Part shown: positions 2,434-10,612 of the stretch, one piece after another
How positions within the stretch are numbered: position 1 is the first letter of the stretch
Layout: each line of letters starts with the position of its first letter
NCBI GenBank assembly: GCA_003278125.1
Contig: QCGX01000009.1
Span: 1 to 37,620, forward strand
Length of the DNA: 37,620 nucleotides
Direction: 5' to 3'
From: Pelagibacteraceae bacterium AG-390-C22
GTDB lineage: Bacteria; Pseudomonadota; Alphaproteobacteria; Pelagibacterales; Pelagibacteraceae
Program-made: the position numbers and the translations under genes
The notes under the pieces: generated by a model
Seen by the model: the letters and a program-made list of their open reading frames with translations, nothing else
Database searches by the model: none
What the model was told of the DNA's origin: nothing

Positions 2434-4770
2434 ATGAGTCAAAAAATTCAAAGCAAGATCAAAGATAAAATTCAAGAAGATATTTCACCTACGCGAAACT
2501 TATCAGGAGTTCATTTAAAAATAGTTTTTGGTATTGCTATTCTTTGGACCTTATTTCAACTTTGGTATGCTTCACCATTTCCTTTTTGGTTGAACTTTGG
2601 AATGTTCAAAGGTTTACCAGCAAGAGCTATACATTTAGGTTTTGCTTTGACTTTAACTTTTTTGATTTTCCCTATGGTAAGAGGAAAAAAAATTTCAGGG
2701 TTTGATATTTTCACTAGTATTGTTGCAGCGTTTTGCTGCCTGTATATTTATTTTTTTTATGATGATCTGGTTAATAGAGGAGGAATACTTTTAGTAAAAG
2801 AGATATTTGGATTTAAAGTTCCTGTCGAGCTTATAATAGGGGCTATAGGAATATTAATTTTATTAGAGGCAACGAGACGTGCTATAGGAATGCCTTTAGT
2901 AATAATTGCTATTTGTTTTCTTTTATTTTCTTATTTTGGAAAATATGCTCCTGACATTATTTCTCATGGCGGTCTTTCTGTAAAAAGATTAGTTGGGTTT
3001 CAATGGTTTGACCAAGAAGCAATATTTGGGATACCAATAGGTGTTTCAGTAGATTTTATATTTCTATTTGTATTGTTTGGAGCTTTACTAGAAACCGCAG
3101 GTGGGGGAAAATATTTTTTAGATTTAGCATTTGCAATGGTAGGCAAGATGCGTGGAGGACCGGCTAAGGCAGCTATTTTAGGATCTGGAATGACTGGCAT
3201 GATCTCAGGTTCTTCAATTGCAAACACGGTCACAACAGGAACTTTTACAATTCCTATAATGAAAAAAACTGGATTCTCCCAAGAGAAAGCTGGGGCAATT
3301 GAAGTTTCGTCATCAGTGAATGGTCAAATTATGCCACCAGTAATGGGAGCAGCAGCTTTCGTTATGGCAAGCTTCATAGGTGTTACTTATTTTGAAGTTG
3401 TTAAACATGCTTTTTTACCAGCTATCATTTCATACATTGCTTTATTTTATATATCTCATTTAGAGGCTCTTAAATTAGGACTCAAGGGCATGGATGACGC
3501 CGATGTACCACATCTGAAGAAAACTTTTTTATCTGGGCTACACTTTTTAATACCAATTTTTGTTTTAATTTTTCTACTTGTTTATATGAGATACACCGCA
3601 GGTTTTTCTATTTTTTATGCAACTATTTCTTTAATTCTAGTGAACTTAATAAATCGTGTTATCAAAAATTCAGATTTTAAAGTTGGTATGATTGAGTGGT
3701 GGAATCAAACTATTGTAGGTTTGCAAAAAGGTGCAATTAATATGGTGGGAGTCGGAATTGCAATTGCGACAGCAGGTATAATAGTAGGCGCAGTTGGATC
3801 TACTGGGTTAAGCACTAATTTAATTATAGTTATTGAGACAATTGCCAGAGATAATGTAATTATTTTAATTTTATTAACTATTATACTTTGCTTACTACTC
3901 GGCATGGGTCTCCCAACTACTGCAAACTATGTAGTAGTGGCATCACTAATGGCTACAGTATTAGTTGATGTCGGAAATGCTTCCGGATTTATTTTTCCTC
4001 TAATCGCAGTTCATTTGTTTGTATTTTATTTTGGTTTAATGGCAGATGTGACACCTCCAGTAGGCCTAGCTTCATATGCAGCTGCAGCAATTTCAGGAGG
4101 AGATCCTTTAAAAACTGGCCTTCAAGCTATTTGGTACAGTTTAAGAACAGGAATATTGCCAATTGTATTTTTGTTTAATCATGAATTACTTTTAATTGGT
4201 GTTGATAATATTTGGCAAGCCTTATTAGTAATAATAACATCTTTAATTGGTATATTAGTTTTTACAGCTGCCACACAAAGATGGTTTATTAATAGATTGA
4301 GCTGGTATGAGATAATTGCTTTTTTAATCATCTCTATATCTTTTTTGGCCCCTGATTTTGTATTAAGTAAATTTTATCCTAAATTTAATGAGCAAAAATT
4401 ATCTTCGACTACTATTCAAGAACTTATTTTTGATCCTTCTAAAGAAGTCCATATAAAAGTAACTAGATTTACAGAGTATGGAGAAAGATATAAATTATTT
4501 GTAATAGACAAAGGTAGTTTTAAGAATGAATATAATTTGGAAGAATTTGGTATGAATTTAGTCGATGAAAATGATCAAGTTACTGTAGATAAGTTAAATT
4601 GGAAAGGAGAAGCAAAAAAATCTGGAATACAAATGGGAGATGTTATTAGTAATTTTAAAATTGAAAATCCGGATCGACCAAATAAGTCCATAGTTTATCC
4701 ATTTGCTCTCTTCTTGTTGATATTATTTGGTTATTCTAATTATAAATTTGGAAAAAAGAATCTCTCTTGA
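2434..4770 (+). CDS. TAXI-type TRAP transporter fused 4TM/12TM permease
   Basis: Inner-membrane permease of a TRAP transporter in which the small (DctQ-like) and large (DctM-like) subunits are one chain, as is normal for TAXI systems; 778 residues. An amphipathic N-terminus is followed by about four hydrophobic segments to residue 180, then the large transport domain. That domain includes the GMTGMISGSSIANTVTTG and GQIMPPVMGAAAFVMA segments (roughly 250-310) and their pseudo-symmetric partner GMGLPTTANYVVVASL and ADVTPPVGLASYAAAA (roughly 490-550). After the last main membrane segments a soluble stretch of about 100 residues (around 650-750) contains a PDZ-like AKKSGIQMGDVI motif and is followed by one more hydrophobic segment. 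This matches the C-terminal extension (DUF3394) known in this permease class. It partners the binding protein upstream. Substrate unknown; uptake is probably sodium- or proton-driven by family analogy. Confidence 0.95.
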   Translation: MSQKIQSKIKDKIQEDISPTRNLSGVHLKIVFGIAILWTLFQLWYASPFPFWLNFGMFKGLPARAIHLGFALTLTFLIFPMVRGKKISGFDIFTSIVAAFCCLYIYFFYDDLVNRGGILLVKEIFGFKVPVELIIGAIGILILLEATRRAIGMPLVIIAICFLLFSYFGKYAPDIISHGGLSVKRLVGFQWFDQEAIFGIPIGVSVDFIFLFVLFGALLETAGGGKYFLDLAFAMVGKMRGGPAKAAILGSGMTGMISGSSIANTVTTGTFTIPIMKKTGFSQEKAGAIEVSSSVNGQIMPPVMGAAAFVMASFIGVTYFEVVKHAFLPAIISYIALFYISHLEALKLGLKGMDDADVPHLKKTFLSGLHFLIPIFVLIFLLVYMRYTAGFSIFYATISLILVNLINRVIKNSDFKVGMIEWWNQTIVGLQKGAINMVGVGIAIATAGIIVGAVGSTGLSTNLIIVIETIARDNVIILILLTIILCLLLGMGLPTTANYVVVASLMATVLVDVGNASGFIFPLIAVHLFVFYFGLMADVTPPVGLASYAAAAISGGDPLKTGLQAIWYSLRTGILPIVFLFNHELLLIGVDNIWQALLVIITSLIGILVFTAATQRWFINRLSWYEIIAFLIISISFLAPDFVLSKFYPKFNEQKLSSTTIQELIFDPSKEVHIKVTRFTEYGERYKLFVIDKGSFKNEYNLEEFGMNLVDENDQVTVDKLNWKGEAKKSGIQMGDVISNFKIENPDRPNKSIVYPFALFLLILFGYSNYKFGKKNLS

Positions 4771-4771
4771 A

Positions 4772-4802
4772 AAAACTAATTTAAATATAAGTTTTATTTT
4801 TT
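4772..4802 (+). terminator. Weak terminator-like hairpin after the TRAP permease
   Basis: AAAACT (4772-4777) pairs with AGTTTT (4790-4795) across a 12-base loop and is followed by a run of T residues (4797-4802). It lies directly after the permease stop codon. The stem is short and almost all A/T, so it may be chance. Confidence 0.3.
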
Positions 4803-4806
4803 AATA

Positions 4807-4863
4807 TTAATTTACTATTAAATATAATATACCTACGACTATAAGTATTTCCCAGCCTGACAT
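4807..4863 (-). CDS. Candidate 18-residue membrane peptide with perfect Shine-Dalgarno
   Basis: A very short minus-strand ORF encoding MSGWEILIVVGILYLIVN. It is almost entirely hydrophobic after Glu5 and long enough to lie across or along a membrane. What makes it credible is AGGAGG on the minus strand (plus-strand CCTCCT at 4871-4876), seven bases before the ATG. I see no comparably perfect ribosome binding site before any other gene in the window. It lies 191 bases downstream of the thioesterase gene on the same strand, so it could be at the tail of that transcript; I see no good promoter of its own. I recognise no family. A chance ORF cannot be excluded at this length. Confidence 0.45.
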   Translation of the reverse strand: MSGWEILIVVGILYLIVN

Positions 4864-4908
4864 TAAATTACCTCCTAGAATTTAATAACAATTTTTTTTG
4901 TTAAAATT

Positions 4909-5058
4909 ATGATTAAGCGGTTGTATTTGTTATTTTGTTATCTCGGAATACATAGGTTTGAAAAAATAGATATAAACTTTAGCTTTGGACCAGGTGGCTC
5001 AACCGAAACGATAAAGTGTAAAGATTGTGGAATTAAAAAATTAAGAAAAAAGAGTTAA
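4909..5058 (+). CDS. Small CxxC protein, function unknown
   Basis: A 49-codon ORF below the usual size cut-off. The N-terminal half is hydrophobic and aromatic (MIKRLYLLFCYLGIHRFEKI), then comes FSFGPGGSTETIK, a CKDCG knuckle at residues 37-41 and a lysine/arginine-rich tail. The pattern looks like half of a zinc ribbon or a small metal-binding protein; Cys10 and His15 might supply the other ligands, which is a guess. Its stop codon overlaps the stop of the convergent thioesterase gene by four bases, a tight arrangement typical of real genes in this window. No Shine-Dalgarno sequence is visible. I do not recognise a named family. Confidence 0.5.
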   Translation: MIKRLYLLFCYLGIHRFEKIDINFSFGPGGSTETIKCKDCGIKKLRKKS

Positions 5059-5444
5059 AGAATTTTCCAAATTCCCGAGGCAGTTGCAACAATTTTTTCT
5101 GTGCCAAATATTTCACATGAGATAAATACAAGCGTCTTTGTTTTTTTTAAAACTTTTACTTTTCCAATTAATCTCTCATTTAATTTTCCAGCTGAAATGA
5201 ATTTAATATCTAAGTTTATCGTCACACATCTTTTATTTCCTGCTGCAATATGAGCTGCATTTCCCATTCCAGTATCAGCTATTGTTGCAATAAAACCTCC
5301 GTGAGCTATACCACCAGTGTTCAAGCAATTTTCTAAAATTTTTATACTATATTCAAAATTGGCTTCATCTATCTTTTTAAAAGATAAATCACCAATATTT
5401 TGCATAAAACCTTTTTTAGTTTCGTCCATAAGATTTTTTACCAT
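5055..5444 (-). CDS. PaaI-family hotdog-fold thioesterase
   Basis: A 129-residue single hotdog-domain protein, the standard size for PaaI/YbgC-like acyl-CoA thioesterases, which hydrolyse acyl-CoA or aryl-CoA to the free acid and CoA, usually as tetramers in the cytoplasm. The diagnostic segment is NTGGIAHGGFIATIADTGMG (42-61): GGxxHGG with the helix-borne Asp57 as the likely catalytic carboxylate. The start used overlaps the end of the EamA gene by 29 bases. An alternative ATG at 5429 would shorten the protein by five residues; neither has a clear ribosome binding site. Substrate unknown; it could be a housekeeping thioesterase releasing CoA. It is co-directional with the EamA transporter and the PDH genes upstream. 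Confidence 0.88.
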   Translation of the reverse strand: MVKNLMDETKKGFMQNIGDLSFKKIDEANFEYSIKILENCLNTGGIAHGGFIATIADTGMGNAAHIAAGNKRCVTINLDIKFISAGKLNERLIGKVKVLKKTKTLVFISCEIFGTEKIVATASGIWKIL

Positions 5445-6318
5445 AAATTGGGGCTAGTTGAGAGAAAATTACAGCTATTAATATTAATACTATTCCAAAT
5501 ATTTTAAGATCACTTAAGAATTGGTTTAAAAGTATCCACCCAAATATTGCAGCGAAAACACCTTCTAATGAAAAAATAATTGCTACTGGAGCTGGAGACA
5601 AATTTTGTTGACTATAAGCTTGCAACAAAAAAGCTATTCCACTTGATAAAACACCAGCGTAAAGAAGTTCATTTTTTTCCATCAATAAATTTCCTAACGT
5701 AATGTTTTCAAAGACTAAAGAAGGAATAAACGCAATTATTGACCCAATCAGACAAGCTCCCATAGTTATTGCAATAGGATAATTAAATAATTTTAAAAAT
5801 TTTGATAAATAAACAATATGAAAAGCCCAAAAAAAAGCTCCTAATAAGACTAAGGAGTCTCCTAACCTGACTGTCACGTTATTTATTTCAGTAAGTAAAT
5901 ACCCTCCAATTATACAGACGAAGACAGAAGGCCAAACAGACCAGTGGATTTTTTTAGAGAATAAAAAATAAGATATAGCAGGAACAATAAGAACATAAAA
6001 TATTGTAAAGATTGCAGAATTAGCAACATCTGTATAAAGCAAAGAGTACTGCTGTAATGCATTTCCTCCACTGAGAAAAAAACCAAGAAGAGATAGATAA
6101 AATAAAATAATATTATAAGAAAATTTTTTTTCTTTGATTTTTTTAAATTCAAAAATGAAAAAAAATGGGACTAATGCTATAAATCCCAGAAACATTCTTC
6201 CTGTAGTAAATGAAAAGGGACCGATATAATCCATTCCCATGTCTTGCGCAATGAAAGCTGAACCCCATATAAACGAGCATGAGACAGCACAAACAAGGGA
6301 GATTAATTTTTTGTTCAT
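5416..6318 (-). CDS. EamA/DMT-superfamily membrane transporter
   Basis: A 300-residue, highly hydrophobic protein with about ten membrane segments made of two EamA repeats (roughly 5-140 and 150-290), the usual size for RhaT/EamA drug/metabolite transporters of the inner membrane. The first repeat begins with SFIWGSAFIAQDMG, the typical EamA opening; the second contains VAIIFSLEGVFAAIFGWIL, the conserved E-x-x-x-A helix. Members export or import amino acids, nucleotides or other small metabolites; the substrate here cannot be predicted. It lies 23 bases after aceF on the same strand and overlaps the thioesterase gene, so the three may share a transcript. Confidence 0.9.
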   Translation of the reverse strand: MNKKLISLVCAVSCSFIWGSAFIAQDMGMDYIGPFSFTTGRMFLGFIALVPFFFIFEFKKIKEKKFSYNIILFYLSLLGFFLSGGNALQQYSLLYTDVANSAIFTIFYVLIVPAISYFLFSKKIHWSVWPSVFVCIIGGYLLTEINNVTVRLGDSLVLLGAFFWAFHIVYLSKFLKLFNYPIAITMGACLIGSIIAFIPSLVFENITLGNLLMEKNELLYAGVLSSGIAFLLQAYSQQNLSPAPVAIIFSLEGVFAAIFGWILLNQFLSDLKIFGIVLILIAVIFSQLAPIYGKKSYGRN

Positions 6319-6341: not shown

Positions 6342-7604
6342 TTAAACAGCAAGCTTGAAAGCGAAATCCTTACCTAAACATTCACTTAAATAGACACAAA
6401 ATCTTGCTCCCTCAGCCCCATCAATTATTCTATGATCATAAGACAAAGAAATTGGTAAAATTTTTCTAGAAACAATTTTACCTTTTAATTTTATTAACCT
6501 ATCAAAACTTTTTCCTACGCCTAGTATCGCCACTTCTGGAGGATTAATTATTGGAGTAAAAAATGTTCCTCCAATGCCTCCTAAACTTGATATTGTCATG
6601 GATCCTCCAAAGAATTCTTTTTTATCTATTTTTAATTCTCTACATAGCTTACTTGTCTTTTTTAATGCCTCACCTATTTCTTTAATGCTCATTTGGTCTA
6701 CATTTCTAATTTTAGGCACCATTAGACCATGAGGTGTATCAACGGCAAAACCTAAATGAAAATATTTTTTATAAATTATTTTATTATGAATAGAGTCAAT
6801 TGATGCATTGAAATTTGGAAAAGCTTTAAGTGCGCTTACTAAAGCTTTCGATATAAATGCAAGGGGAGTTACTTTTATCATTTCTCCAGAGTAATAATCG
6901 TACAAAGATGATCTAAATTGTTCCATTTCCGTAATATCAATTTCTTCATGCTGAGTAACATGAGGTATTTCTGTCCAAGACCTGACTAGTTGGGGTCCTG
7001 ATAATTTTTTGACTCGCGGTATATCTTTTAATTCAATTTCTCCAAACTCTTCATGAGGATACTCTTCTTTATGGATTTTTTTCTCTACTCTACCACCGTT
7101 AACAGTAACTTGTGATCTAATGAAATTTTTTACATCTTCTTCAGAGACTCTTCCTGCTCTTTGTGATCCAGGTATTTCAAGCACATTAGCGCCCAGTTCT
7201 CTTGCAAATTTTCTAACCTTTGGGCTAGCGGACTTAGTTCCACTTTGTGAACTAGGAGCGGTCGGTATAATCTCCTTTGTTTTAATTACCTGTGGCTTCT
7301 TATCTTCTATTTTTTTTTCAATTTTTTGCTCTTTATTAACTGATATTTTTTTTTCTTCTGTTTTATTTTCTGACTTGAGACTAAGAATTAGATCTCCTTG
7401 ATTTACTTTATTACCAACTTTTATTTTAATTTTTTCTACTATTCCTTCATGAGTGGAAGGCACTTCTACGCTAGATTTGTCACTTTCCAATGTTATTAAA
7501 GAGTCATTTTTTTTAATTTGTTGACCTTCTTTTACAAGAACTTCAATAACTTCTACATCTTTGAAGTCACCCATATCAGGAACTAAAATTTTTGTACTAG
7601 TCAT
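6342..7604 (-). CDS. aceF: Pyruvate dehydrogenase E2, dihydrolipoyl acetyltransferase
   Basis: Core subunit of the pyruvate dehydrogenase complex; it moves the acetyl group from E1 to CoA. Domains in order: one lipoyl domain (about 5-78) with the lipoyl lysine K43 in ESDKSS; a charged linker rich in Lys and Glu; the peripheral subunit-binding domain (about 126-162, ASPKVRKFARELGANV); then the catalytic acetyltransferase core to the end, with the DHRIIDG motif giving catalytic His391 and Asp395. At 420 residues with a single lipoyl domain it is shorter than gammaproteobacterial AceF proteins, which carry up to three. The lipoyl domain resembles AceF proteins (GDFKDVEVIEVLVK). The gene begins two bases after the aceE stop and is surely co-transcribed with it. 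No E3 gene is adjacent. Confidence 0.96.
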   Translation of the reverse strand: MTSTKILVPDMGDFKDVEVIEVLVKEGQQIKKNDSLITLESDKSSVEVPSTHEGIVEKIKIKVGNKVNQGDLILSLKSENKTEEKKISVNKEQKIEKKIEDKKPQVIKTKEIIPTAPSSQSGTKSASPKVRKFARELGANVLEIPGSQRAGRVSEEDVKNFIRSQVTVNGGRVEKKIHKEEYPHEEFGEIELKDIPRVKKLSGPQLVRSWTEIPHVTQHEEIDITEMEQFRSSLYDYYSGEMIKVTPLAFISKALVSALKAFPNFNASIDSIHNKIIYKKYFHLGFAVDTPHGLMVPKIRNVDQMSIKEIGEALKKTSKLCRELKIDKKEFFGGSMTISSLGGIGGTFFTPIINPPEVAILGVGKSFDRLIKLKGKIVSRKILPISLSYDHRIIDGAEGARFCVYLSECLGKDFAFKLAV

Positions 7605-7606
7605 AT

Positions 7607-10600
7607 TTATAAGTTAGATGGAAAATCTTTATTTTTATCAATTTTATATTTCTTAATCGCTTTTTCTGCTTTTTTTGTCTCTATTAACTGTTCTTTAGCT
7701 AAGGCACTTAAGGTGTAGGCAACTATGTGTTCTTTGTCTACTTCAAAAAACTTTCTTAAATTCTTTCTTGTATCACTTCTTCCATATCCATCAGTACCTA
7801 AAGAATAAAATGGCTTTTCAGTATAAGGCCTTATTTGATCTGAAAAAGATCTTGTATAATCAGATGCGGCAATAATTGGCCCATCTCTTTTCTCTAAGCA
7901 CTTCTGGACATAAGATTTTTTCCTTTTTTCGTTGGGATTTAAAAGGTTCCATCTTTCTGTTTCCATCCCGTCTCTTCTTAACTCATTAAAACTTGTAATG
8001 CTCCATACATCTGAGTCTATGCCATAATCTTGAGATAAAATTTTTGCTGCAGATATAATTTCTCTTAATATTGTTCCAGAGCCTAAAAGTTGAACTTTTG
8101 TTTTTCCCTTTTTATTAAATTCTTTAAAAAGATACATTCCTTTAAGTATACCTTCATCACACCCCTTTGGTTTTTCAGGATGAGAATAATTTTCATTCAT
8201 TGCAGTAATGTAATAGAAAATGTTCTCTTTTTTTTCATGCATTCTTTTAATTCCGTCTCTGAATATTGTTGCCATTTCGTAAGCAAAAGTTGGATCGTAA
8301 CTTACACAATTGGGAATATTAGAAGCTAATAAATGGCTATGGCCATCTTGGTGCTGCAATCCTTCTCCTGCCAATGTTGTTCTACCTGCCGTAGCCCCGA
8401 TTAAAAAGCCTCTAGCTTGGGAGTCGCCCGCGGCCCAGGCAAGGTCACCAACTCTTTGAAAACCAAACATAGAGTAAAAGATATAAATTGGTATCATTTC
8501 TAAATCATGATTTGTATAAGATGTACCTGCTGCAATCCAAGAAGACATAGCTCCAGACTCTGTAATTCCTTCTTCTAATACTTGACCGCTCTTATCTTCT
8601 CTATAAGAACTTAATTGTTCGGAGTCCACTGGTTCATACTTCTGTCCTTCATGAGCATAAATTCCAATTTTTTGAAAAAATCCTTCCATCCCAAATGTTC
8701 TTGCTTCATCAGGAATAATCGGCACTAACCTTGGTGATAGATTTTTATCTCGAAGAAGAGCCGTTAACATTCTAACGAGAGCCATCGTTGTTGACATTTC
8801 TTTGTCTCCAGTTGACTTCATAAAAGTCTCAAAGATATCTTTAGGAGGCGCTTTAATTGCTTTGGCAAAAGAAGATCTTTCTGGGATAAAACCACCAAGT
8901 TTCAATCTTCTATCTTTTAAGTATTTTATTTCTTCGGAATTTTCACTTGGCTTATAATATTCAATACTTTTAACCTGTTTATCTGTAAGCGGAACACCAA
9001 ATCTATCCCTGTAATATAGTAAGTCCTTTTCATCTAGTTTTTTTTGCTGGTGAGTAGTGTTCATGCTCTCACCCGATTTTCCCATACCATAACCTTTGAT
9101 AGTTTTTGCAAGTATAACCGATGGAGAACCTTTGTGTTGCATAGCTGAATGATATGCTGCGTAAACTTTATGGGGATCATGTCCGCCTCTATTTAATTTC
9201 CAAATATCTTTATCAGTCATTGAAGATACCAATTCTTTTAACTCTGGATATTTTCCAAAAAATTTCTCTCTTACATACGCTCCACCTTTTGCTTTAAAAG
9301 CTTGATATTCACCATCTACACATTCATTCATTCTCTTTACCAGTAAACCATTTTTGTCTTTTGCTAACAGTTGATCCCAATATGAACCCCATATAACTTT
9401 AATTACATTCCACCCAGTACCTCTAAAACTTCCTTCAAGTTCTTGAATAATTTTTCCGTTTCCTCTGACTGGCCCATCTAATCTTTGAAGATTACAATTA
9501 ATTACAAAAATTAGATTATCTAGCTTTTCTCTTGCAGCCAAGCCTATTGCTCCAAGCGACTCTGGTTCATCCATTTCGCCATCACCTAGGAAGACCCAAA
9601 TTTTTCTTCCTTCGTCTCTTACTAAACCTCTATTTATTAAATATTTTAAAAATCTTGCTTGATAAATCGCCATGATCGGCCCTAGACCCATCGAAACAGT
9701 AGGAAATTGCCAAAACTTTGGCATCAACCACGGATGAGGATATGAGGACAAACCACCTTCATCAACTTCTTGTCTGAAACCATCTAATTGTTTCGAGGTA
9801 AGTCTGCCTTCTAAAAATGCTCGTGCGTACATTCCAGGAGCAGAGTGGCCTTGAAAGTAAATTAAATCTCCTCCAAACTTATTATTTTTTGCCCTCCAGA
9901 AATGATTCATTCCAACGTCATAAAGAGTGGCAGCTGATGCAAAGGTTCCAATGTGTCCACCTAATTCTGAACTTCTTTTATTTGCTTTGACCACCATAGC
10001 TGCAGCATTCCATCTTATGTAAGCTCTTATTTTTTTCTCAATATTTTGATCGCCTGGTGACTTAACTTCAATTTCAGGAGGAATTGTATTTATATAAGGA
10101 GTAGTTCTTGTGTCAGGTAAAACTAAACCAGATTTATAAGCTTGATCGATTACTTGATTTAATAAATAACTCGCTCGTGGCGAACCATCATTTTCAATTA
10201 CTGAATTTAAAGATTCAATCCATTCATTGGTTTCTATTGGATCAATATCATCTTTAGAAGCAGGCTCAGCAAAAATTTTTTTAACTTGTTTAACAGGATG
10301 TAGGTCTCCATTTTTTTTTGGTTCTTCTTCAACAGGTTCTTTCGTTATTTCTTTTTTTTTAGGAGTCGGAGTTACTTGACCATTTTCAATAGTAGCTAGG
10401 ATGCTTCCCTCTGAAACCTTATCACCTATCTTAACTTTTAAATCTTTAATTTCACCAGAGGACGGAGAAGGAATTTCGAGACTAGATTTATCACTTTCGA
10501 TAGTAACGACTGGATCATTTTTATTTATCTTATCTCCAGGTTTAACCAGTACCTCAATTACTTCAACATCTTTAAAATCACCAATATCAGGAACTGAAAT

Positions 10601-10612
10601 ATTTTGAGCCAT
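7607..10612 (-). CDS. aceE: Pyruvate dehydrogenase E1 (homodimeric AceE type) with N-terminal lipoyl domain
   Basis: Thiamine-diphosphate enzyme that decarboxylates pyruvate and loads acetyl onto lipoate. The protein has 1001 residues. Residues 1-78 form a complete lipoyl domain with a lipoylation site at K42 (ESDKSS); 79-120 is a charged linker; from about 121 (DDIDPIETNEW) it aligns from memory with the start of E. coli AceE and runs about 880 residues, the full normal length. Visible E1 features: the ThDP/Mg motif GDGEMDEPES through NLQRLDGPVRGNGKI, a THQ motif matching the essential active-site His, and the GEGLQHQDGHSHL segment. Lipoyl domains normally sit on E2; in many alphaproteobacteria the E1-beta subunit carries one, but this is the unrelated single-chain E1. 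Probably the first gene of the aceE-aceF unit. Confidence 0.96.
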   Translation of the reverse strand: MAQNISVPDIGDFKDVEVIEVLVKPGDKINKNDPVVTIESDKSSLEIPSPSSGEIKDLKVKIGDKVSEGSILATIENGQVTPTPKKKEITKEPVEEEPKKNGDLHPVKQVKKIFAEPASKDDIDPIETNEWIESLNSVIENDGSPRASYLLNQVIDQAYKSGLVLPDTRTTPYINTIPPEIEVKSPGDQNIEKKIRAYIRWNAAAMVVKANKRSSELGGHIGTFASAATLYDVGMNHFWRAKNNKFGGDLIYFQGHSAPGMYARAFLEGRLTSKQLDGFRQEVDEGGLSSYPHPWLMPKFWQFPTVSMGLGPIMAIYQARFLKYLINRGLVRDEGRKIWVFLGDGEMDEPESLGAIGLAAREKLDNLIFVINCNLQRLDGPVRGNGKIIQELEGSFRGTGWNVIKVIWGSYWDQLLAKDKNGLLVKRMNECVDGEYQAFKAKGGAYVREKFFGKYPELKELVSSMTDKDIWKLNRGGHDPHKVYAAYHSAMQHKGSPSVILAKTIKGYGMGKSGESMNTTHQQKKLDEKDLLYYRDRFGVPLTDKQVKSIEYYKPSENSEEIKYLKDRRLKLGGFIPERSSFAKAIKAPPKDIFETFMKSTGDKEMSTTMALVRMLTALLRDKNLSPRLVPIIPDEARTFGMEGFFQKIGIYAHEGQKYEPVDSEQLSSYREDKSGQVLEEGITESGAMSSWIAAGTSYTNHDLEMIPIYIFYSMFGFQRVGDLAWAAGDSQARGFLIGATAGRTTLAGEGLQHQDGHSHLLASNIPNCVSYDPTFAYEMATIFRDGIKRMHEKKENIFYYITAMNENYSHPEKPKGCDEGILKGMYLFKEFNKKGKTKVQLLGSGTILREIISAAKILSQDYGIDSDVWSITSFNELRRDGMETERWNLLNPNEKRKKSYVQKCLEKRDGPIIAASDYTRSFSDQIRPYTEKPFYSLGTDGYGRSDTRKNLRKFFEVDKEHIVAYTLSALAKEQLIETKKAEKAIKKYKIDKNKDFPSNL

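Follow-up and report, generated by a model that had tools for sequence, protein, structure and literature searches.

AceE of SAR11 bacteria carries an N-terminal lipoyl domain, probably the only swinging arm of pyruvate dehydrogenase in many relatives

The window, a stretch of 37,620 nucleotides, is one contig of a 27-contig, 1.04-Mb draft genome of the SAR11 order (Pelagibacterales), family Pelagibacteraceae. The most similar named records, with identities of up to 91%, come from single-cell genomes and MAGs of this family. The genes for the E1 (aceE) and E2 (aceF) components of pyruvate dehydrogenase (PDH) lie in it side by side (Table 1). The 1001-residue AceE is composed of a complete lipoyl domain, a disordered linker and a full-length homodimeric AceE, and differs in this from the canonical arrangement, in which E1 has no lipoyl domain. 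Residues 4-75 match Biotin_lipoyl with 72.8 bits against a cut-off of 22.1, and a genome-wide profile search places the match at 10388-10603. Residues 119-998 match the NCBIfam aceE model with 1450 bits against a cut-off of 859.9. An earlier note, made from the sequence alone, had described residues 1-78 as a complete lipoyl domain with K42 as the lipoylation lysine, a charged linker, AceE from about residue 121, and an E2 with one lipoyl domain of its own. The domain is indeed complete here and is present in all 30 relatives examined first, the layout holds, and Pfam finds a single lipoyl domain in the E2 frame; only the exact start of AceE differs, since homology begins at residue 119. The linker sequence is variable in the alignment of relatives.

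Table 1. Positions of aceE, aceF and their parts in the window
Feature	Position	Strand	Basis or remark
aceE open reading frame	7607-10612	minus	1001 aa, ATG start
AceE N-terminal lipoyl domain, residues 1-78	10379..10612	minus	Pfam PF00364, AF2, dN/dS
K42 codon of AceE lipoyl domain	10487-10489	minus	
Charged AceE linker, residues 79-118	10259..10378	minus	pLDDT <50 at 79-112; dN/dS 0.33
AceE part (homodimeric E1p), residues 119-1001 and stop codon	7607..10258	minus	TIGR00759
aceF (E2p)	6342-7604	minus	420 aa, two bases downstream of aceE
E2 single lipoyl domain	7380..7592	minus	profile match
E2 peripheral subunit-binding (E3_binding) domain, residues 126-159	7128..7229	minus	PF02817
E2 catalytic domain, residues 195-410	6375..7022	minus	PF00198

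The AlphaFold model of AceE supports this division. With just 14 sequences the mean pLDDT was 49.5, and the model built with 57 sequences (mean pLDDT 82.7) was used instead. Residues 1-78 are modelled with pLDDT of about 74-90, the linker is disordered up to residue 112 and the E1 part is mostly confident. K42, part of the motif IESDKSSLE, occupies the lipoylation turn, which joins strands 34-39 and 44-48. The matches in the structure comparison cover the E1 part of AceE only. E. coli AceE (2g25) superposes on it with Z 57.1 and 1.6 A rmsd over 800 residues, which gives it the E1p fold, and a second E. coli structure (1l8a) matches at residues 121-998. With the E1-E2 complex of E. coli (4qoy) the superposition starts at model residue 128, indicating that the linker is followed by a retained N-terminal segment of E1.

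Selection on the gene indicates that the N-terminus is translated and constrained. In the 55 pairs formed by 11 proteins of the same genus, the lipoyl domain has a median dN/dS of 0.043 and E1 one of 0.028, against 0.33 in the linker, so that the lipoyl domain is under nearly as much constraint as the enzyme part. Synonymous sites are near saturation in these pairs, of which 13, 2 and 3 could not be corrected for lipoyl domain, linker and E1, respectively; the raw pN/pS values fall in the same order (0.107, 0.518 and 0.082). An internal start near residue 115, which the earlier note had named as a result that would refute its reading, is contradicted by this pattern.

The lipoyl domain was present in every SAR11 AceE examined that lies beside aceF and has its N-terminus on the contig. 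Among the loci examined first, L010 is cut by a contig end within the domain and L020 is frameshifted after it. Of 31 Pelagibacteraceae loci that were not chosen for their E2 state, 29 have the domain and the other two are cut by the contig end. A larger table was obtained from 117 SAR11 loci by discarding those that failed a completeness filter. In 103 of its 108 loci E1 carries one or more lipoyl domains, one of the 103 (L206) being a fragment at a contig end; four of the remaining five are contig-cut and the fifth has an intact domain upstream of a frameshift. Some members of two genera (L165, L167, L252 and others) have two lipoyl domains on E1. Wherever an E1 lipoyl domain extends over the lipoylation site (111 domains), it has the lysine (ESDK). 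In L020 and L191 a frameshift lies between the lipoyl domain and the E1 part.

In a survey of the order Pelagibacterales, 178 of 247 genomes had an AceE over the cut-off, and the second family of the order had no AceE match better than E 1e-10. Among the matches listed, the AceE open frames are at least 998 residues long, except one of 931 residues; this is L020, where the lipoyl domain stands in a shifted frame. All ten tested genomes without AceE are also without AceF. One SAR11 genome, G001, has an additional, divergent second AceE without a lipoyl domain, away from aceF or any other E2 gene.

Outside SAR11 the domain was not found on AceE. A survey of the class drew 385 genomes and found full-length AceE in all five SAR11 genomes drawn, G001 being one of these, and in six others; the lipoyl domain was present in 5/5 of the SAR11 loci and 0/6 of the other alphaproteobacterial loci. 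Together with 49 non-SAR11 loci, all without the domain, this gives 0/55, and at the non-SAR11 loci the same lipoyl model does score the neighbouring E2 and E3-like genes highly. A survey of the phylum (398 genomes) gave 161 genomes with an AceE match at E 1e-100 or better. Among the matches listed, only those of two SAR11 genomes begin at the lipoyl part; G787, whose match starts at position 61, was examined and is without a lipoyl domain.

The complex encoded in the window has one lipoyl arm on each of E1 and E2. Many of its relatives have an E2 with no arm at all. The E2 adjacent to AceE lacks a lipoyl domain in 43 of the 108 SAR11 loci, has one in 58 and two in 7; merging three identical pairs leaves 105 distinct loci, 40 of them with a lipoyl-less E2. 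The proportion of 43/108 is not a frequency, because the set is enriched: 31 of 32 short-E2 genomes were included and the others only partly. In the set that was not chosen for E2 state, a lipoyl-less E2 occurs in 10 of 31 SAR11 loci. Among the matches listed, 32 of 150 E2 frames are shorter than 340 residues, one of them (G669) contig-cut, and in a further SAR11 sample 7 of 14 full AceF-type frames are below this length. In some SAR11 loci lipoyl-less aceF has 298-308 residues. The SAR11 layout thus ranges over one or two lipoyl domains on E1 and two, one or none on E2; in the seven two-domain loci the second E2 domain is without the lysine.

The short E2 frames retain the other two domains. 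In three lipoyl-less E2s, E3_binding and 2-oxoacid_dh were the only Pfam matches over the cut-offs, and in these loci the aceF start overlaps the aceE stop or lies within 3 bases of it. Across the whole set the lipoyl-less frame opens at or near the aceE stop, and frames that are not contig-cut open 7-34 residues ahead of the binding domain. The catalytic SYDHR motif is present in 47/47 lipoyl-less frames. Apart from the E1 domains, no frame of at least 40 residues beside a lipoyl-less E2 has a lipoyl domain.

The main tree was built from the E1 and E2 catalytic parts with the lipoyl domains left out. After removal of near-copies it contained 78 of the 108 SAR11 loci, together with 8 of 40 outgroup loci. 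The E2 lipoyl state changes seven times on this tree, six of the changes being forced by well-supported branches, and likewise seven times on a tree of E1 only. A topology that holds all lipoyl-less loci together in a single clade is rejected (p-AU 1e-60). Since E2 has its lipoyl domain in the outgroups used and on one side of the basal SAR11 split, the seven changes are most simply losses, with regains possible. The E1 lipoyl domain beside aceF shows no loss on the tree. The view that the essential work falls to the E1 domain rests mainly on this contrast between repeated loss on E2 and none on E1.

SAR11 AceE forms one clade (support 100) with no clear sister. The origin of its lipoyl domain was studied in a tree of 77 columns, for which 25 SAR11 loci were picked by hand and only even-numbered other loci were used. 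The E1 and E2 lipoyl domains of SAR11 cluster together among AceF-type domains (support 92). The E1 domains do not form a single clade; those of one large genus lie nearer to E2 domains, possibly through gene conversion. The E1 domain is of AceF type. It most likely goes back to an E2 lipoyl domain that was copied in the SAR11 ancestor or earlier, although this part of the tree is weakly resolved.

A search of whole genomes with Biotin_lipoyl found no other PDH lipoyl domain in 17 genomes with a lipoyl-less E2. AceE and an AccB-size frame account for the strong matches, along with a SucB-size frame in 16 of the 17; the exception, G631, is an incomplete and partly contaminated assembly. Weak, partial matches in three genomes proved to be an HlyD-type adaptor in G056, a contig-end fragment beside an ABC exporter in G631 and GcvH in G713. 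Four control genomes with a lipoyl domain on E2 (G003, G005, G013 and G015) each gave a fourth strong match, and three genomes without AceE gave matches only to AccB and SucB. GcvH was a strong match in 7 of 10 genomes and would not be expected to serve PDH. Since the genomes with a lipoyl-less E2 are drafts, a gene may have been missed in any single one, which is less likely for all of them together.

E3 does not carry the arm either. In all 20 genomes examined for it, the single full-score Lpd has an open frame of 466-482 residues, which is too short for a lipoyl domain; two of the 20 have in addition a lower-scoring relative of 456 residues. Of the lipoylation genes, LipB was found in 14/14 SAR11 genomes and LipA in 11/14; LipA was not found in G000 (the genome of the window), G056 and G627, which are all draft assemblies.

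We consider it likely from these comparisons that the swinging arm has moved from E2 to E1 in SAR11, where the E1 domain is the only PDH lipoyl domain found in many relatives of the window's genome. The arm would have been copied onto E1 and become indispensable there, after which the arm of E2 was dispensable. LipB and LipA would lipoylate K42, and the ThDP site of E1 would reductively acetylate the lipoyl-K42 of the same or of a neighbouring E1. E1 presumably docks on the subunit-binding domain of E2 through its own N-terminal segment, which is kept in the sequence; because of this docking, the flexible linker would let the E1 lipoyl domain visit the active sites of E2, and then E3 for re-oxidation. 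The conserved domain with its lipoylation lysine very probably carries acetyl groups, and where the E2 arm has been lost, it probably does the whole job. It is likely that several SAR11 lineages run PDH on E1-tethered arms alone, around an arm-less E2 core, with the E2 arm lost independently about seven times and no loss seen of the E1 arm beside aceF.

The genome of the window keeps both arms, so function as the sole arm is a claim about its relatives. The earlier note had proposed that a lipoate-bearing E1 could acetylate itself, present the acetyl group to E2 and raise the number of arms in the complex. The last point holds for the complex in the window, but many relatives have lost the E2 arm, and there the E1 arm takes its place. 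The interpretation is partly supported: its direction was right, but it understated the case for relatives with a lipoyl-less E2.

The E1 linker is about 46-88 residues long by the measure used. The median is 66 beside a lipoyl-less E2 (n=31) and 55 beside an E2 with a lipoyl domain (n=33), a difference that would be expected if a longer reach is required of the E1 arm. Six independent pairs hardly ever run against this trend, yet it is not significant in them. Lengthening of the linker with loss of the E2 domain is suggestive only.

An alternative is that the E1 domain is auxiliary or structural and that the lipoyl domain of SucB serves the lipoyl-less PDH in trans. A SucB-size lipoyl frame is indeed nearly always at hand in these genomes, Lpd is encoded near SucB, and the actinobacterial OdhA uses the lipoyl groups of AceF in trans, as a part of PMC10415282 describes. 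An auxiliary domain would hardly be expected to keep its lysine without exception under strong purifying selection, or to escape loss beside aceF while the E2 domain is lost repeatedly. The E1 domain of the window's genome is also closer to the lipoyl region of AceF (45/91 aligned residues identical) than to the SucB lipoyl domain (27/77). We regard this alternative as unlikely. It is very unlikely that the lipoyl-less E2 genes are decaying and that PDH is being lost in those lineages: some SAR11 genomes are without both AceE and AceF, but the lipoyl-less E2 keeps its subunit-binding and catalytic domains with an invariant SYDHR, and the state is common to clades of many species in which E1 is full length. 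An artefact, either a wrong aceE start codon or a misassembly giving a lipoyl-less E2, is scarcely credible, since the frameshifts in L020 and L191 might point to it but the selection pattern across the aceE start contradicts a start-codon error, lipoyl-less E2 occurs in single-cell and MAG records and in several separated clades, and frames beside it show no lipoyl domain except that of E1.

In typical alphaproteobacteria a lipoyl domain is found at the N-terminus of E1-beta (PdhB). This is similar to SAR11 in that the domain is N-terminal on an E1 chain in the same bacterial class, but the E1 of those bacteria is made of alpha and beta chains, whereas SAR11 has the homodimeric AceE with an AceF-like domain. 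The family that we take to be the lipoyl-bearing PdhB is NCBIfam NF008854, a model of 464 positions. None of 32 genomes of the SAR11 order was over its cut-off, and the six best E1-beta-like matches in this search start at model position 101 or later; one of 14 control genomes was over the cut-off, presumably Caulobacter. An E1-alpha/beta pair in the genome of the window was set aside, as it is below the cut-offs, gives no match to a lipoyl model and has an aminotransferase-like gene next to it. PdhB lipoyl domains were left out of the lipoyl tree, so clustering with AceF-type domains is no direct test of an origin from PdhB. The two layouts with the arm on E1 look convergent, as the earlier note had suggested. 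SAR11 is itself alphaproteobacterial and uses the homodimeric E1 fold, which brings the two cases nearer to each other than was assumed there.

Other known complexes resemble that of SAR11 in single features. In textbook PDH the lipoyl domains are covalently part of E2, according to passages of PMC8421416 and PMC10415282, and each E. coli E2p has three of them, as stated in a passage of PMC8421416. E. coli PDH shares the AceE fold and the AceF-type E2 beside AceE, but its AceE of 886 residues has no counterpart of SAR11 residues 1-120. The lipoyl-bearing E3 (Lpd, PDB 5u25) has a lipoyl domain of similar sequence on a peripheral subunit, E3 in place of E1; in the beta- and gammaproteobacterial loci examined that have an E3-like lipoyl frame beside aceF, E2 still has a lipoyl domain according to simple-motif labels. 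In the actinobacterial OdhA an E2 catalytic domain also works without its own lipoyl domain, but E1o and E2o activities are joined in one chain and the lipoyl groups come from AceF in trans, as part of PMC10415282 reports, whereas the lipoyl domain of SAR11 is covalently attached to E1.

Among the matches listed from the open-licence literature, we found no title or abstract on a lipoyl-bearing AceE or a lipoyl-less AceF. In the field of SAR11 genomics, PMC10030771 records aceEF and multiple aceE copies, and the word 'lipoyl' does not occur in its main text. Domain databases may already display this AceE architecture without comment.

The swinging arm on E2 is a textbook principle of the 2-oxo acid dehydrogenase complexes, and the layout proposed for SAR11 would reverse it. 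If the arm can sit wholly on E1 and be absent from the core, active-site coupling would not require it to be part of the core subunit. Sister species that differ in whether E2 has its lipoyl domain occur naturally and would make this long-standing assumption directly testable.

Doubling of the lipoyl domain was observed on both E1 and E2. AceE has two N-terminal lipoyl domains, each with its lysine, at loci L165, L166, L167, L168, L233, L240, L252 and L253. Two lipoyl domains on AceF were found at L169, L170, L213, L215, L237, L238 and L252, and the inner domain of such an E2 has lost its lysine (for example DEENAYEIPSP) and is still recognisable.

Neither AceE nor AceF was found in the draft SAR11 genomes G040, G142, G076, G105, G183, G230, G154, G165, G173 and G197. 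In the survey of 247 genomes of the order, AceE exceeded the cut-off in none from f2, its second family, and lipoyl-type PdhB exceeded the cut-off in 0 of the 12 f2 genomes tested. A divergent second AceE paralogue in genome G001 adjoins a TRAP-type solute-binding gene. Multiple aceE copies are described for SAR11 IIIa in a published account (PMC10030771).

Coordinates of the features
Feature	Location	Positions	Strand
Two-lipoyl-domain AceF	L169	5841-7382	
AceE paralogue without lipoyl domain	L174, G001 (genus g2)	2922-5597	
PDH-like E1-alpha/E1-beta pair without lipoyl domain	L177, G000 contig C5	2960-4994	
Fused TRAP transporter permease with DUF3394 domain	window	2434-4770	opposite to aceEF

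In the window, the TRAP permease gene is situated past the aceEF, EamA and thioesterase genes. The E1-alpha/E1-beta pair on another contig of the same genome adjoins an aminotransferase-like gene, and this pair is probably not a PDH.
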